IMG/VR virus record: IMGVR_UViG_3300033567_000101
Coordinates: 1 to 32,691 of that record
Origin: a virus
DNA: 32,691 bases
Strand: one strand, 5' to 3'
Shown: in pieces, positions 2,130 to 32,691 of the stretch
How positions within the stretch are numbered: position 1 is the first letter of the stretch
Layout: every line of letters starts with the position of its first letter
The notes under the pieces: generated by a model
What the model was told of the DNA's origin: nothing
What the model saw: only the letters and a program-made list of their open reading frames with translations
Databases searched by the model: none
Position numbers and translations under genes: made by a program

Positions 2130-3191
2130 GTGCCAAAAGGAGATTACCAACGACTCAAAGCGGACGTCGAAGATGGTGCGGTTCCGATTGCGCGCCTTCT
2201 GCTCGAAGCGGTGTCCATGGCGAAGCTCAATGGGGTAGCCAAAGGGCTTGTGATCTTCATCTGGCGTCGTACCTACGGATGGATGGATGTCAACGGTCGT
2301 AAGCACAAATCAGACCGCATCACACTCGCCGAGTTTGCCCAGGCCACTGGGTCCGCGAAGACGTACGTTTCGTCGCAGCTGAAGCTTCTGGTGAAGGCAC
2401 ATGTCATTGAGGAACAGTCCGATCCAGACAACGGTCGCTATAAGCAGTACGGCATGAATACAGATGTATCCGGCTGGGACAAGGTCGTTCTCAATACGGA
2501 TGATTTGCATCAAGCTATCGAAACAAAATTGTACGTTCATAGCACCAAAAATGGCACCTTAACGGTTCAGCAAACACGTAACCGTTCAGCAAATGCTAAA
2601 GGTTTAACAAACGCTGAACCGTTAAGCAATAGCATAACAACAACGTTCAGCAAATGCGTAACCTTCAGGTCCGATAATCCCAGTGGTGGCGCGGGAAGCG
2701 ACGCGTCTAAAGAAAGAAGTACTAAAGAAATAAAGATCGCTGTTGCTGCTACCCCCTATAGTCCCCCGTCGAGGTTTGACGATGAGGTTGAAGCGGTCTT
2801 GAGACAGCACATGGGGAACCCGCACTATCGACTGGTGGGTACAGACTTTCACCTGCTAAAGGAATTGGTGGCTGACGGCGTTTCTGGAGAAGTAATCCTG
2901 CAGGGTATGGCGGAAGGCTTCGAGCGGTACAGACCTAGATTCGATGGTGACAAGATAAGCTCGTTTTCCTACTTCAGAAACATCATTCGTGAATTGTGGC
3001 GCGCGGTCACAGAGCGTGAACAGGCCCACCTTCAGGTGGCAGTTGGACAAGTCAAGAGGGCGGAGTCTACACCAAGGAACAAAGGCGCGCCAAAGGCAGG
3101 TAACTCGCTGGGCAGTGAAGGTTCAACGGCAAACGGACAACGGGACCCGCGTTATGCGGCATTCTACGAGCTGTTTCCGGATACGACGTGA
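2130..3191 (+). CDS. Phage replication initiator (lambda O-like N-terminal domain)
   Basis: This 353-residue protein begins with a winged-helix region like the phage replication protein O N-terminal domain: I-W-R-R-T-Y-G-W, D-R-I-T-L-A-E-F-A-Q-A-T-G, and K-L-L-V-K-A-H-V-I (about 15-115). A low-complexity Asn/Thr/Ser-rich linker (about 140-210) follows, then a helical C-terminal domain with S-S-F-S-Y-F-R-N-I-I-R-E-L-W near residue 280, probably the part that recruits replisome proteins. The linker is encoded by four copies of a repeat (see next entry), matching lambda, whose origin lies inside gene O. Start is GTG at 2130. No separate helicase loader or helicase gene is visible; it may be host-supplied or lie outside the window. 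Confidence 0.75.
   Translation: MPKGDYQRLKADVEDGAVPIARLLLEAVSMAKLNGVAKGLVIFIWRRTYGWMDVNGRKHKSDRITLAEFAQATGSAKTYVSSQLKLLVKAHVIEEQSDPDNGRYKQYGMNTDVSGWDKVVLNTDDLHQAIETKLYVHSTKNGTLTVQQTRNRSANAKGLTNAEPLSNSITTTFSKCVTFRSDNPSGGAGSDASKERSTKEIKIAVAATPYSPPSRFDDEVEAVLRQHMGNPHYRLVGTDFHLLKELVADGVSGEVILQGMAEGFERYRPRFDGDKISSFSYFRNIIRELWRAVTEREQAHLQVAVGQVKRAESTPRNKGAPKAGNSLGSEGSTANGQRDPRYAAFYELFPDTT
2559..2738. repeat. Iteron-like repeats with A-rich tract: candidate replication origin
   Basis: Four copies of a motif with the core GTTCAGC lie in about 100 bases. Copies on the plus strand start near 2561 (AACGGTTCAGCAAA), 2580 (AACCGTTCAGCAAA) and 2642 (AACGTTCAGCAAATGC). The inverted copy at 2613-2623 reads AACGGTTCAGC on the minus strand. 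Copies two and four share 14 identical bases. A purine- and A-rich tract follows at 2707-2738, a plausible unwinding element. The repeats encode the linker of the replication initiator, exactly where lambda-like phages place their origin. The repeats are seen directly; the origin function is inferred. Confidence 0.65.
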
Positions 3192-6715: not shown

Positions 6716-7210
6716 GTGCAAGGTCAGATAATGCTAGGTATTCCACAAACAGACGTTAAGCGGACACGTCAGGCACTGTACGCATATCTCGCGGTGTATC
6801 GGCGGTACCGGCAGCAGCTCTCGCAGGGTTGGAGCCCTAAGCTCAAGCCGCCGCTGCCGGGATACGAGAAGGCAATGGATCCAGACCTGATACGCCGCCA
6901 AGGGCCTAAGCTAGGTGTCGGTAGCGGTATGACACCGGAGGAGTTCAAGGAGGCGTTTGTCACACGGGTGGAACGTAAGGTGGACAGGCTTCCACCGTAC
7001 GGGCGAGAAGTTATCACCCGGCGCCTGTTAACTTTGCGCTCTGGGTATCGATCCATCCACGACTTACGAAGTGACACGGAAGTTCTGGAGGACATGCAAC
7101 GTGCCGGGTGGGCGTCCGAGAGGGCGTATTATGAACGACAAAAGGCCGAAGCTATTCAGATGCTGGCGGAGATGTTGCACGTAGCTGTATACAGTGATGA
7201 AATTTCGTAG
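6716..7210 (+). CDS. ArpU-like late transcription regulator
   Basis: The 164-residue protein has the layout of the phage ArpU family: an N-terminal I-P-Q-T-D-V-K-R-T-R-Q-A-L followed by a Y-R-R-Y helix, a variable middle, and a C-terminal helix-turn-helix-like region (Y-Y-E-R-Q-K-A-E-A-I-Q-M-L-A). ArpU-type proteins resemble sigma region 4 and act as late-gene regulators just ahead of the packaging genes, the position seen here. The start is a GTG at 6716 after a GGGGGTGG site; an ATG lies five codons further on. The assignment rests on position and overall pattern, so a more distant sigma-like protein is possible. Confidence 0.6.
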   Translation: MQGQIMLGIPQTDVKRTRQALYAYLAVYRRYRQQLSQGWSPKLKPPLPGYEKAMDPDLIRRQGPKLGVGSGMTPEEFKEAFVTRVERKVDRLPPYGREVITRRLLTLRSGYRSIHDLRSDTEVLEDMQRAGWASERAYYERQKAEAIQMLAEMLHVAVYSDEIS

Positions 7211-7318
7211 GGAAACATGATGGAACGGTGAGGATTCAATCCCGGAAAGCAGCGCTACAATGGGGGCAAGGACAGATGTGTCCACGTGGAAAAAGTGAAA
7301 AGTTACAAGGGATGGCGA

Positions 7319-7415
7319 GGCGCCCATATCGGGTGCCTTTAGTCGTATATTCAGGCTCTGCCGGGTGGTGTCATGTGCCATATACCCGACGCGTCCGGAG
7401 CGTTCCGGCAGAGCT
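7319..7415. other. Two stem-loops, the second with a 10-bp perfect stem
   Basis: GGCGCCC (7319-7325) pairs with GGGTGCC (7331-7337) around a 5-base loop. Then GCTCTGCCGG (7355-7364) is perfectly matched by CCGGCAGAGC (7405-7414), with G:U pairs possible at both ends. Inside it, CCGGA/TCCGG can form a competing small hairpin. A smaller hairpin, GGACA/TGTCC, lies upstream at 7270-7283. No T-run follows, so these are not intrinsic terminators. The stretch 7211-7441 holds no convincing gene. It could be part of a cos/pac region or a structured RNA leader for the 34-residue gene just downstream. Confidence 0.5.
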
Positions 7416-7441
7416 ATCCGGTTTGAGAGAGGTGATAGACA

Positions 7442-7546
7442 ATGACTTGTCCCTGCCAGCTAGGTTATAAGTGCGTCTGGGCAAAGGACGTTGGAACGAA
7501 GCTAACTTGTGCGTTGCCGAGGTGTGTGATGCTGGCGAAGAAGTAA
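7442..7546 (+). CDS. 34-residue Cys-rich small protein
   Basis: An ATG at 7442 follows a good GAGAGAGGTG site. The 34-residue product starts M-T-C-P-C-Q-L-G-Y-K-C and has cysteines at 3, 5, 11, 23 and 28, ending in L-A-K-K. The spacing suggests a small zinc knuckle, but no family is certain. It sits between two long inverted repeats, just before the cargo block. Ribosome site, cysteine pattern and fit into the gap argue that it is real. Confidence 0.5.
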   Translation: MTCPCQLGYKCVWAKDVGTKLTCALPRCVMLAKK

Positions 7547-7564
7547 GCGTATGAATCTGCCTAG

Positions 7565-7619
7565 CATCGAGGGCACAGATCGGAGCCGAAGTCCGCGCGC
7601 GGCGCTCCGGCCCTCGATG
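7565..7619. other. Long stem-loop with GC palindrome: candidate cos site or structured RNA
   Basis: CATCGAGGGC (7565-7574) pairs perfectly with GCCCTCGATG (7610-7619). Directly stacked on it, CGGAGC (7581-7586) pairs with GCTCCG (7604-7609), leaving a 6-base bulge ACAGAT on one side. The tip contains CCGCGCGCGG (7593-7602), itself a perfect palindrome. No T-run follows on either strand. The element lies between the late regulator and the terminase genes, where cos-type phages often keep the packaging site. Confidence 0.5.
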
Positions 7620-7660
7620 GTGGGTGGAAATGATGAAATCAAATGCTCGGATCTGTGAGG

Positions 7661-7900
7661 TTAATAAAAACGGTATTTATACTGTCCACCATCACGAACA
7701 ATAAGATACCACCTACCAGTTCCATTTACCGAAATTCTCACGGGTGTTTGCGTGTAGTGTCCGCCAAAGTAAGTGTACTGTTGACCGGATTGAAATCTGC
7801 TGAAGTTTGTGCTGTCAACAAGAAAAACATCCGCAGCATGGTTCAATTCAACTTCCACGCTTAATGAACCGTTTGAATCGGCATATGGTACTTGATCCAT
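7661..7900 (-). CDS. DUF1883-like protein (79 aa), leftward
   Basis: This gene runs against all its neighbours. Its ATG (complement of 7898-7900) follows a near-ideal AAAGGAGG site. The product has the DUF1883 pattern: V-E-V-E-L-N-H-A-A-D-V-F-L-V-D, then N-F-S-R-F-Q-S-G-Q-Q-Y-T-Y-F-G-G, and a closing G-R-W-Y-L-I-V-R-D-G-G. DUF1883 is a small beta-rich domain sometimes found with TIR or other defence-like domains; its ligand is not known to me. The opposite strand, lower G+C and isolation mark it as an added cargo gene. It is divergent from the HEPN gene, with a short dyad between them that may control both. Confidence 0.75.
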   Translation of the reverse strand: MDQVPYADSNGSLSVEVELNHAADVFLVDSTNFSRFQSGQQYTYFGGHYTQTPVRISVNGTGRWYLIVRDGGQYKYRFY

Positions 7901-7932
7901 GTTAGCACCTCCTTTCTCCAACAAACTTCTGC

Positions 7933-7945
7933 ATTGTCCGACAAT
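7933..7945. promoter_or_regulatory. Dyad between divergent cargo genes (candidate operator)
   Basis: ATTGTC-C-GACAAT is a perfect 6-1-6 dyad in the 108-base space between the leftward DUF1883 start and the rightward HEPN start. This is where an operator controlling both would sit. I could not identify convincing -35/-10 boxes on either strand, so promoter positions are unassigned. Confidence 0.4.
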
Positions 7946-8008
7946 TTCCTTGTAAGAAGCAGGAAATAAAATCCGGATAAAGAAATTGAAGATAAGGGGG
8001 TGCAGACA

Positions 8009-8935
8009 TTGCCTCAACAAGACGTGGAGTTTACGTTGCTCGAAAATGGTCTGGACTTTGTGCTCTCAGCGCTGGAACATATGGCAGGAGATCCTTCTCC
8101 TCGTGAGATTAAATATAGCGTGCTTCATCTCTGCTCTGGGATTGAGCTGGTATTGAAGGAGAGACTGATGCGAGAGCATTGGTCTCTGGTGTTTGACAAA
8201 CTCGAAAAGGCAAAGAAGACGACTTTTGAGAGCGGACGATTTAACAGTGTGACATTCGTGCCGTGCATAGATCGACTCATTGAAATAGCTGGGGTAGACT
8301 ACGTACGCGCCCATCGTAAAGAGTTGGAGTCATTTCGAGACAGAAGGAATCAGATTGAACATTTCGGATTTGTTGACTCAATAGAAGCCATCAAGTCTTC
8401 ATCATCTAAGGTATTGAATTTTTTGTATGATTTTATTCATCGCGAATTAGCACCAACTGCTGACCTTGAAGAGCAACTCGCAGAGATGCTCGAATACCTT
8501 CGGGAGTTCGACCAGTTTGTCAAGGACAGGATGCTTATTGTTCAGGAGGAAGTAGCCGATGTTTGTTCACCTATAGTCGAGTGCTCGCGATGTAGGCAAA
8601 TGGCGGTTACGATAGCGGAGGGGGAGGCACTATGTCACTTTTGCCGACATGTCTCTCAGGGTGAGGATGCCGCCGTTGAATATGTTGAGGAAATACAAGG
8701 TACAACCGCCTATGCGCTTGGCAAGAATGGTTTCGAGTTTCCGGTATACGATTGTCCTGAATGTGGTTCTTCCGCGGTTGTCGAGAACGAGGAAGGAATT
8801 GTATGCTTCTCGTGCGGAGAGTCATGGGAGTTGAGCGCAATGACATATTGTGACCGGTGCGGTCGGTCCTTCTTTAGGCATGAAACCAACTCCGATCTGT
8901 GTGAATCTTGTTTCGAAGATTTGTCGAGAGACTGA
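8009..8935 (+). CDS. HEPN-like protein with three zinc ribbons
   Basis: The 308-residue protein has an all-helical N-terminal half (1-145) with L-L-E-N-G-L-D-F, L-H-L-C-S-G-I-E-L-V-L-K and R113-N-Q-I-E-H118, an R-x4-H motif characteristic of HEPN RNases. A helical linker (150-185) leads to three CxxC pairs-of-pairs: C192/C195/C209/C212, C249/C252/C266/C269 and C281/C284/C298/C301, each a likely zinc ribbon. HEPN proteins often cut RNA in toxin or defence systems, while zinc ribbons commonly bind nucleic acid or a partner. The TTG at 8009 is preferred over the GTG at 8000 because the GGGGG site at 7996-8000 is properly spaced only for the TTG. RNase activity and defence are inferences. Confidence 0.7.
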   Translation: MPQQDVEFTLLENGLDFVLSALEHMAGDPSPREIKYSVLHLCSGIELVLKERLMREHWSLVFDKLEKAKKTTFESGRFNSVTFVPCIDRLIEIAGVDYVRAHRKELESFRDRRNQIEHFGFVDSIEAIKSSSSKVLNFLYDFIHRELAPTADLEEQLAEMLEYLREFDQFVKDRMLIVQEEVADVCSPIVECSRCRQMAVTIAEGEALCHFCRHVSQGEDAAVEYVEEIQGTTAYALGKNGFEFPVYDCPECGSSAVVENEEGIVCFSCGESWELSAMTYCDRCGRSFFRHETNSDLCESCFEDLSRD

Positions 8936-8967
8936 TTCGCACATACTGGTCATATCAACGCCTTCCT

Positions 8968-9005
8968 TCATTCGAATGATTCCGACATATTGAAGGAATT
9001 TCCTT
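8968..9005. promoter_or_regulatory. Two dyads upstream of the coiled-coil gene (candidate operators)
   Basis: TCATTCGAATGA (8968-8979) is a perfect 12-base palindrome. AAGGAA-T-TTCCTT (8993-9005) is a perfect 6-1-6 dyad, the same geometry as the dyad at 7933-7945 although its sequence differs. Both lie in the 106-base gap between the HEPN gene and the next gene. TTGAAG near 8990 could serve as a weak -35 box, but no good -10 is spaced correctly. Confidence 0.4.
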
Positions 9006-9041
9006 TAAATTGAAGAATATGTGGGTTAGGAGGCGAATGAT

Positions 9042-9371
9042 ATGAATGATAAGAAGGCAGCGTTAGAAGTGTATCAAAAGGAACTACAAGAGAGGATTTC
9101 TGCTAAAGAAGCGGAGTATGCGGAAAGAGAAGGTCAACTTGATTCTCTTGGTCAGAGGAAGGGAATTCTGGATCGCACTCTGCAAAAAAACCGCGAAACC
9201 ATAACGTCCAATGATAGGCGTTTCATCGAACGGGAGTTAGAAACCGTTTCTACAGAATGGGATAAGGCGGGAACGATCTTCAATGAGAGCAGGGACGAAT
9301 GGGTTTGTGCGATCCGCTCTCTAAAATTAATATTAGAGGAAACCCGGCGTTTGATAGTAAAGAATTCATGA
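9042..9371 (+). CDS. Coiled-coil protein of unknown function (109 aa)
   Basis: The ATG at 9042 follows a strong TTAGGAGG site. The product is charged and almost wholly helical, with heptad-like spacing (Y-Q-K-E-L-Q-E-R-I-S-A-K-E-A-E-Y-A and later R-F-I-E-R-E-L-E-T-V), so a coiled coil is likely. No known domain or membrane segment is seen. It is the last gene of the cargo block and is followed directly by a terminator. It could partner the HEPN protein or be an ordinary small phage protein that often precedes the terminase; nothing decides between these. Confidence 0.65.
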   Translation: MNDKKAALEVYQKELQERISAKEAEYAEREGQLDSLGQRKGILDRTLQKNRETITSNDRRFIERELETVSTEWDKAGTIFNESRDEWVCAIRSLKLILEETRRLIVKNS

Positions 9372-9380
9372 GATTCAACC

Positions 9381-9407
9381 AACCCACTTTGGTGGGTTTT
9401 TCTTTTT
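9381..9407 (+). terminator. Intrinsic terminator just before the terminase genes
   Basis: AACCCAC (9381-9387) and GTGGGTT (9392-9398) form a 7-bp hairpin with a TTTG loop, followed by a T-rich run to 9407. The small terminase ATG lies only 18 bases downstream, leaving no room for a promoter in between. Late transcription must therefore read through it or use antitermination, unless the terminase promoter is hidden elsewhere. Confidence 0.8.
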
Positions 9408-9424
9408 GTGGAGGTGACGTTGAG

Positions 9425-9916
9425 ATGGGCAAGTTGACGCCAAAGCAGAGCGCCTTCGTGCAAGAGTACCTTGTCGATCTCAACGCCACCCAAGCCGCGA
9501 TTCGTGCGGGGTACAAAGCAAAGACGGCAAGACAGATTGCAGCAGAAAACTTGTCAAAACTTAACATTCAGTCTGCTATCCAAGAAGGAATGCAGAAACG
9601 CGAACAGCGCACGGAGATCACACAAGACAAGGTCATCGAGCAACTCGCTAAGATCGCGTTCCTCGACATTAAGGACGTGGTCACCTGGGCGGATAAAGAA
9701 GGCATCAAAATCCGTCCGAGTGAAGAGGTGGACGGTACGGTTCTAACGGAAGTGTCCGAGACTTTATCCGAGGGTGGCTGGACGAAGAAGGTGAAGATGT
9801 CCGACCGGATGCGTGCCTTGGAGATGCTCGGCAAACACCTTGGTATGTTCAAGGAGAATATTCAACTTAGTGGAGCTATCGGGGTGAATTTCGTTGATGA
9901 CATCGACGACGGATAA
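9425..9916 (+). CDS. terS: Terminase small subunit
   Basis: The 163-residue protein starts M-G-K-L-T-P-K-Q-S-A-F-V-Q-E-Y-L-V-D-L-N-A followed by T-Q-A-A-I-R-A-G-Y, the classic N-terminal helix-turn-helix of the terminase_2 small subunit family. A C-terminal oligomerisation region follows, with R-M-R-A-L-E-M-L-G-K-H-L-G-M-F. It recognises phage DNA at the packaging site and hands it to the large subunit. The ATG at 9425 follows a GGAGGTGA site. Its stop lies downstream of the large-subunit start, so the two genes overlap by about 20 bases. Confidence 0.92.
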   Translation: MGKLTPKQSAFVQEYLVDLNATQAAIRAGYKAKTARQIAAENLSKLNIQSAIQEGMQKREQRTEITQDKVIEQLAKIAFLDIKDVVTWADKEGIKIRPSEEVDGTVLTEVSETLSEGGWTKKVKMSDRMRALEMLGKHLGMFKENIQLSGAIGVNFVDDIDDG

Positions 9917-18002: not shown

Positions 18003-18031
18003 GTAGTCATCTCCTATGGGGGTGTTTTTGT

Positions 18032-28182: not shown

Positions 28183-28203
28183 GGCCCTTCGGGGCTATTT
28201 TTT
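28183..28203 (+). terminator. Intrinsic terminator between tail and lysis genes
   Basis: GGCCC-TTCG-GGGCT (28183-28196, with one G:U pair) forms a stable tetraloop hairpin, followed by A and six T residues to 28203. The next gene's ribosome site begins just 8 bases later, so no promoter fits between. As at 9381-9407, transcription must read through, or a promoter lies within the upstream gene. Confidence 0.82.
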
Positions 28204-31866: not shown

Positions 31867-32691
31867 TTAGGGCTCCGTAGAATGGTTTCTTTGAACAGAT
31901 CGAAGTTCTTCGTACCAATTATCCGGGAATCCCATAAGGGATATATCCACGTATTCCTCATATGCCTCAATTGTGCCTGTCAATGATTGAAGAAACCGCT
32001 CCCAGTCGGTTCGGGATAAACATAACCGAGCGCACACATATAATGCGGTATATAGGTGCTTGTCTCCATACTTCACTAGCCATGAGTTCGGCATCCTTGG
32101 ACTAAAGGTGAGATATTTGCCATATATTCTGGCGGAATGCGCACATGCGTTTCTGAGATAAACTAAGGTTCTTAGCCACGAACGAAGAAACGGGGACGAT
32201 ATGCCCTTTTGGTTGGCTATTTCACTTTGGTATTCAGAAAGCAAATTACTGTAGAAGAACGAAAGCTGATCGAAACTCATAAACTCAACAGTTACCCAGA
32301 TTGGGAAACGTCCTTTGTACTTCGCAAAGTGGTGAGTAACAATAGCATCCTTCTTGTTTCGATGTTTAAGGCTGTGCTTCATTTTCTTGCGGAATTCTAG
32401 ATAGGATTTTATGTTTTGGAAATTGCCTCGATATCGATGCGCCAATGGAGAAACAGTGTGGCCTAGATAGTAACTGACGTTTACCCTCATCGCTACTTCG
32501 ACTTTTTCTAGAATCCAAAGTAACCGATTTCTCAATTCCGCATCGAATTCATAAATCCGGTACACATTTTCAAAATTCGTTCCAGGTAAGTATGCATCTC
32601 CCTGTGTTCGATATGGCAGGAGATAACCTGTAAACCGATAGTAATTAACACGTTTCAGAACTGATACAGCAAAAGGTAAATCGCCGATCAC
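31867..32691 (-). CDS. Abi_2 (AbiD/AbiF-like) abortive infection protein, 5' partial
   Basis: The frame enters from the right edge, and the true start is probably outside. Landmarks of the Abi_2 family are clear: V-N-Y-Y-R-F-T-G-Y-L-L-P, Y-R-I-Y-E-F-D-A-E-L-R-N, K-V-E-V-A-M-R, W-V-T-V-E-F-M-S-F-D-Q-L-S and R-N-A-C-A-H, an R-x4-H motif like that of HEPN domains. AbiD/AbiF proteins block infection by other phages, often by killing the infected cell. The gene runs leftward, against the late operon, and looks lower in G+C than the structural genes, suggesting an acquired defence gene at the phage border. Confidence 0.88.
   Translation of the reverse strand: MIGDLPFAVSVLKRVNYYRFTGYLLPYRTQGDAYLPGTNFENVYRIYEFDAELRNRLLWILEKVEVAMRVNVSYYLGHTVSPLAHRYRGNFQNIKSYLEFRKKMKHSLKHRNKKDAIVTHHFAKYKGRFPIWVTVEFMSFDQLSFFYSNLLSEYQSEIANQKGISSPFLRSWLRTLVYLRNACAHSARIYGKYLTFSPRMPNSWLVKYGDKHLYTALYVCARLCLSRTDWERFLQSLTGTIEAYEEYVDISLMGFPDNWYEELRSVQRNHSTEP

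Follow-up and report, generated by a model that had tools for sequence, protein, structure and literature searches.

The late-gene leader of virus record IMGVR_UViG_3300033567_000101 (32,691 nt, analysed here at its full length and referred to as the window) raises the question of what two long stems are doing on either side of a very small Cys-rich gene. The first-pass annotation of this DNA had offered two answers, a cos site displaced from the small terminase subunit gene (terS) by later insertion of cargo, or a structured RNA. Because the best TerL relatives of the window come from prophages in Alicyclobacillus contaminans and in Alicyclobacillus sp. ALC3, the host of this phage probably belongs to the Alicyclobacillaceae.

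The leader is bounded at its left by a gene for an ArpU-type late transcription activator (6716–7210, + strand; PHROG_248 'transcriptional activator', E 4.7e-5), which is 61% identical to its homologue in the syntenic prophage L125, and at its right by terS (Pfam Terminase_2), whose start is probably at 9425; neither the regulator nor the Cys peptide has a match in the phage collection. To the right of the regulator gene is a putative late promoter (7256–7283, + strand) with a TACAAT −10 element at 7256–7261 and a start-region dyad, GGACAGATGTGTCC, at 7270–7283. It was missed by a sigma-70 consensus scan of 7150–9450, and we infer its activity as a late promoter from comparison: the 28-bp block is conserved in the syntenic prophage L083, with looser likeness in other relatives, several of which by eye have a TAYAAT-like −10 followed by a CAAGGACA..TGTCC-like sequence. 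Between the promoter and the Cys gene the fold also contains a terminator-like hairpin that the first-pass annotation overlooked, T1 (7319–7340, + strand), in which GGCGCCC-ATATC-GGGTGCC spans 7319–7337 and is followed by TTT. Equivalents of T1 with T-runs are present in L146, L150, L154, L083, L167, L169, L168, L122, L137 and L139. The gene order in L083 is recU, ArpU, promoter, T1, a moron, a 54-aa Cys4 protein, a long hairpin and terS; its moron, of about 85 aa, is homologous to one located between T1 and the Cys gene in L169 (L083 8835–9089 and L169 2456–2794; AKFFVADV..AKSVSLYGVFTSQDGREGNATEENRIFG).

Both stems, HP1 (7355–7364/7405–7414, + strand; GCTCTGCCGG/CCGGCAGAGC) and the core of HP2 (7565–7574/7610–7619; CATCGAGGGC/GCCCTCGATG), are perfect over 10 bp exactly where they had been placed, and the features described within the second are all present: the ACAGAT bulge (7575–7580), the 6-bp inner helix CGGAGC/GCTCCG (7581–7586/7604–7609), and the palindrome CCGCGCGCGG at the tip (7593–7602). 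The core of HP2 is part of an outer helix of about 18–19 pairs (7556–7574/7610–7628) with a single GxG mismatch at 7564/7620, and no 80-nt window in the record has a lower energy than the one with the whole hairpin (7554–7630, + strand), −43.7 kcal/mol (z about −4). When the entire region from 7319 to 7640 was compared with 100 dinucleotide shuffles, none of them folded as well (z −3.1). A stem counts for little by itself, because a few perfect 10-bp repeats are expected by chance in so long a record; there are five real sites with perfect 10-bp inverted repeats within 80 nt, and first-order Markov simulations gave 0–7 ten-mer matches. The 3′ flank of HP2 is AATGATGAAATC, and with no T-run after the stem HP2 does not fit an intrinsic terminator, the terminator-like sites of the leader being T1 and a second one, T2, discussed below.

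The two stems do not behave as a pair. HP1 is missing from the closest relatives, L146 and L147, has no convincing homologue in 41 family genomes (a single 22-base match, E 0.0036), and before the Cys gene the relatives carry unrelated hairpins or none. Its folding alone is unremarkable (z −2.2), and with no convincing homologue found it was dropped as a conserved partner of HP2; HP1 is specific to this phage and is not supported beyond its stem.

HP2, in contrast to HP1, has homologues at six loci besides the window (L146, L147/L150, L154, L143/L169, L125/L167 and L083), in phages or prophages of Alicyclobacillaceae type, and all seven lie 3′ of T1 and 5′ of the late genes. Both the Cys gene and HP2 are present in L146 and L147, and L154 carries an 88% identical HP2 without the Cys gene; L143 and L125 were recovered by model R1, and the L083 hairpin was first recognised visually, model R2, which was built with L083, also matching it. 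Covariance in homologous phages had been suggested as a check at the outset, and in alignment A5, which comprises these seven sequences (few in number, and some of them close relatives), the outer helix is 92% paired, with changes on both sides in 10 pairs. Double-change cells number 19 compared with 6.6 in shuffles, and the covariation score is 0.398 against 0.169 in shuffles, a value that none of 500 shuffles reaches, with slid controls at 0.112 or less. The inner helix covaries as well in a hand alignment (CGGAGC/GCTCCG, CCGAGG/CCTCGG, GCGAGT/GCTCGC, GTGAGT/GCTCAC). HP2 is a single hairpin to which L083 and L125 add a small side hairpin; UAGCA/UGGUG with its GxG mismatch is kept in six of the seven sequences while the bulge or junction ranges from 3 nt to a side hairpin, and the only member without GxG, L154, has a fully canonical helix. 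The sense (late) strand has 15 G-U cells and 3 A-C cells, an excess of G-U that suggests selection on this strand and points to RNA, with the qualification that the related sequences are not independent. It is covariation in the homologues, not folding energy, that decides the matter, and HP2 is very probably a genuine structured RNA in the late leaders of phages, with no Rfam family assigned to it. A search of the window gave no Rfam match above gathering score, the few weak sub-threshold matches (to eukaryotic snoRNA or miRNA families) being taken as chance, and a search of the relatives' loci gave no family. Of the two original answers, a structured RNA is thus upheld for HP2, by the compensatory changes in seven loci, the G-U bias and the fixed place, but not for HP1.

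The distribution of HP2 is narrow. Among 59 genomes of the order and 399 sampled genomes of the class, R2 matches at E ≤ 0.001 were found only in G001 (two prophages), G037 and G041, all of them in Alicyclobacillaceae prophages. Order-level R2 matches at E > 0.003 were inspected in four cases (L176, L177, L178 and L180) and discarded as chance, having no UAGCA/UGGUG frame. A degenerate pattern scan of the 399 class genomes was too loose to be used, with controls matching equally often, and a stricter pattern gave just two contigs in viral_contigs, both already known. A hairpin 5′ of the Cys gene in L134/L171 (R1 30.8 bits) was excluded, as it is not recovered by R2, and membership of L168 2889–2973 (R2 19.8 bits) as a distant relative is doubtful.

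We next consider whether HP2, alone or with HP1, could be a cos or pac site moved away from terS by the cargo. It does resemble such sites in its position near terS and the start of the packaging genes, and in L154 it lies directly 5′ of HNH-terS-terL, an order typical of cos phages. However, closely similar HP2 hairpins precede four unrelated terminase arrangements: Terminase_2/Terminase_3 in the window, Terminase_6 in L146, Phage_terminase with Terminase_3 in L150, and HNH with Terminase_4 and TerL_ATPase in L154. L146 is particularly instructive, with both the terminase and the regulator exchanged (the protein replacing ArpU has weak PHROG_248 and PHROG_79 matches) and the Cys gene and HP2 retained. 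Because a packaging site would have to track its terminase and HP2 does not, the cos/pac proposal is unsupported, and the strand bias of the G-U pairs and the relatives without HP1 also speak against it; from these comparisons it is very unlikely that HP2 is a packaging site.

Comparison of the segments next to HP2 bears on a different DNA-level reading, in which the hairpin would be a recombination or cassette border of the cargo slot between the Cys gene and terS. In the window, L146 and L147 sequence similarity ends right after HP2 and a differing cargo follows in each, and in L125/L167 a minus-strand cargo gene separates the Cys gene from HP2. Against this, there is the asymmetry between G-U and A-C cells, no second HP2 copy was found beyond the cargo of the window, and the cargo borders may simply mark the end of the late-operon essentials; we regard a border function as highly improbable. 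The gene at 8000–8935 (+ strand), between HP2 and terS, is probable defence cargo and encodes a HEPN-like/DUF3644 protein with C-terminal zinc ribbons (PADLOC DUF3644, HEC-08, PDC-S64). A DUF1883 protein gene at 7664–7903 (− strand) shares about 71% identity with one in Paenibacillus phage Pd_22F.

The small gene in front of HP2 (7442–7546, + strand) encodes a 34-aa Cys4 protein, MTCPCQLGYKCVWAKDVGTKLTCALPRCVMLAKK, with the pattern C-x5-C-x-W...C-x4-C, and has a good Shine-Dalgarno sequence. On comparative sequence grounds it is a real gene: of 41 Alicyclobacillaceae genomes 11 have homologues, which lie in the late leader wherever their position was examined, L146 and L147 also carry homologues (94% and 88%), and in a smaller Cys4 alignment the C, C, W, C and C residues are invariant. 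The versions in the window, L146 and L147 are without the C-terminal tail present in other members. The protein probably binds zinc; it matches no Pfam or PHROG family at E ≤ 0.001, and no Com-family Pfam entry, and its AF2 model is uninformative (mean pLDDT 50). We note that two contigs that came from the TerL search, L017 (5595–5735) and L060 (3704–3802), encode shorter Cys4 relatives (C-x2-C-x-W..CPF..CV) 5′ of terL, and that in two ALC3 prophages a small single-TM-like ORF is located right after the Cys gene (L167, reverse complement, 2370–2460; L168, 2790–2892).

The Cys gene and HP2 occur together at six of the seven HP2 loci, and in the window, L146, L147, L083 and L169 the hairpin either overlaps the Cys stop codon or is at most about 8 nt away from it. 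This proximity raises the possibility that the Cys4 protein has as its RNA target HP2, which follows its gene, as in the Com/mom system of phage Mu; the zinc protein would bind the GxG helix and so control how its own message, or the next one, is translated or how stable that message is. Com of phage Mu is a zinc protein of the CCCC type with 62 aa, and it recognises a SELEX-derived RNA duplex that was crystallised with a central G-G pair (PMC6483171); the two systems are alike in having a very small CCCC protein adjoining an RNA element in a phage operon, and in the G-G pair. The Cys4 protein differs from Com in size and cysteine spacing (C-x5-C and C-x4-C, without Pfam similarity and with a poor fold prediction), and binding of HP2 by the Cys4 protein is a proposal by analogy. 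The sole member without the Cys gene, L154, is also the sole one without GxG, which is suggestive, but this joint loss is one case. The two are not obligate partners, HP2 being missing at many Cys-gene loci (e.g. L122, L170 and L172), and the next genes differ in every phage. Taken together, these points leave a Com-like role doubtful.

A long, irregular, intergenic hairpin without a T-run and with an asymmetric bulge beside its upper stem could also be a processing or stability element. In this case cleavage of HP2 by RNase III or Mini-III would part the leader/Cys message from the late mRNA and stabilise both, for which the R sites of phage T7 are a precedent, and the sense-strand bias fits such a role. 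RNase III sites need little sequence conservation, however, yet in HP2 UAGCA/UGGUG and GxG are retained in all but one member while the bulge or junction varies; we consider processing by these enzymes unlikely.

Our preferred reading, to which we would give a probability of roughly 45%, is that HP2 is a cis-acting RNA of the late leader that acts on the late transcript. The second terminator-like site, T2 (9381–9398, + strand), is a hairpin with a T-run resembling an intrinsic terminator and lies between the cargo and terS. Similar sites are found between HP2 and the packaging genes in L146 (2260–2275, 5′ of terS), in L150, and in L167 (5′ of a ParB-like gene of the packaging module), and an identical scan gave none that is convincing in L154 or L083. 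We place an effect on elongation first because late transcription from the leader promoter would have to cross the T2-like site and because there are precedents for leader RNAs that act in this manner. The putL and putR sites of HK022 are nascent phage leader RNAs of about 70 nt that act in cis near the start of a long transcript (PMC9378689), and HP2 is likewise a leader RNA near the start of a long phage transcript. The put sites, however, are pairs of adjacent stem-loops in early transcripts in E. coli, whereas HP2 is one irregular hairpin in the late leaders of Bacillota phages, with no adjacent second stem-loop; we claim no sequence similarity between them, and an activity of HP2 would be comparable by analogy. 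The RNA polymerase β′ zinc-binding domain is what put RNA acts on. The conAn system of plasmid pLS20, which consists of the ConAn1 protein and the conAn2 RNA, stands at the head of a long Gram-positive operon that has terminators within it (PMC8955417), and the HP2 locus resembles it in arrangement, with an RNA element and the gene of a small protein together where the operon begins. It differs in belonging to a plasmid conjugation operon, and at the HP2 locus T1 comes before the small gene, and each of the two parts can occur without the other. Terminator-like sites are present inside the late operon of the window (T2 and those beginning at 18008 and 28183), although their total is not above that in shuffles. 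The latter two are intergenic sites in the middle of the operon, at 18008–18024 and 28183–28196.

Under the elongation reading, HP2 would be transcribed from the late promoter just 3′ of the late-regulator gene, following T1 in the transcript and usually coming directly after the Cys4 gene. On leaving the polymerase the nascent RNA would fold into a long helix. Close to the base of this helix would be the fixed GxG mismatch, on its 5′ side a bulge or side hairpin that varies, and above these an upper stem. HP2, or a complex of HP2 with the Cys4 protein, would then modify the elongating polymerase, which would continue late transcription past downstream terminators such as T2. Antitermination as the specific mechanism is possible, with the odds somewhat against it. 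A point against it is that HP2 lies 3′ of T1, and T1 must therefore be overcome by something else. A two-part version, in which the Cys4 protein and HP2 together make the host polymerase resistant to terminators across the late operon, is quite unlikely, but if true it would give phages an equivalent of conAn, and an RNA-based route that replaces or supplements late antitermination of the Q type.

Most descriptions of late control in Gram-positive phages have ArpU, RinA or Ltr proteins activating a single promoter. In one account the activator gene is located directly 5′ of the promoter under its control, before terS (PMC13123087). The order of activator gene, promoter and terS in the window is alike, and the passages of that account on these promoters name no leader RNA element; HP2 is an additional component of the leader. 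A conserved leader RNA beside a widespread tiny Cys4 gene suggests a second layer of control, after initiation, and HP2 has been exchanged among phages independently of the packaging module. Lysogens of a food-spoilage genus would allow direct tests of this small element, and its covariance model provides a way to find it elsewhere.

Attenuation by pairing of the 3′ arm of HP2 with downstream sequence was considered and rejected, as the alternative is no better than a control arm over the set (Fisher p 0.13 within 45 nt and 0.047 within 80 nt for the 3′ arm; 0.18 and 0.044 for the 5′-arm control). The bulge and inner 5′ strand of HP2, CACAGATCGGAGC (7574–7586), are complementary at 12 of 13 positions to GCTCGGATCTGTG at 7645–7657, a complementarity that is not apparent by eye in L154. 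At the right end of the record, a gene for an AbiD/Abi_2 abortive-infection protein (31870–32691, − strand) is open at the contig edge. Finally, a 14-bp perfect inverted repeat (2558–2571/2613–2626) is located within the coding region 2130–3191, and has the strongest tiled-window fold z-score of the record, −6.1.
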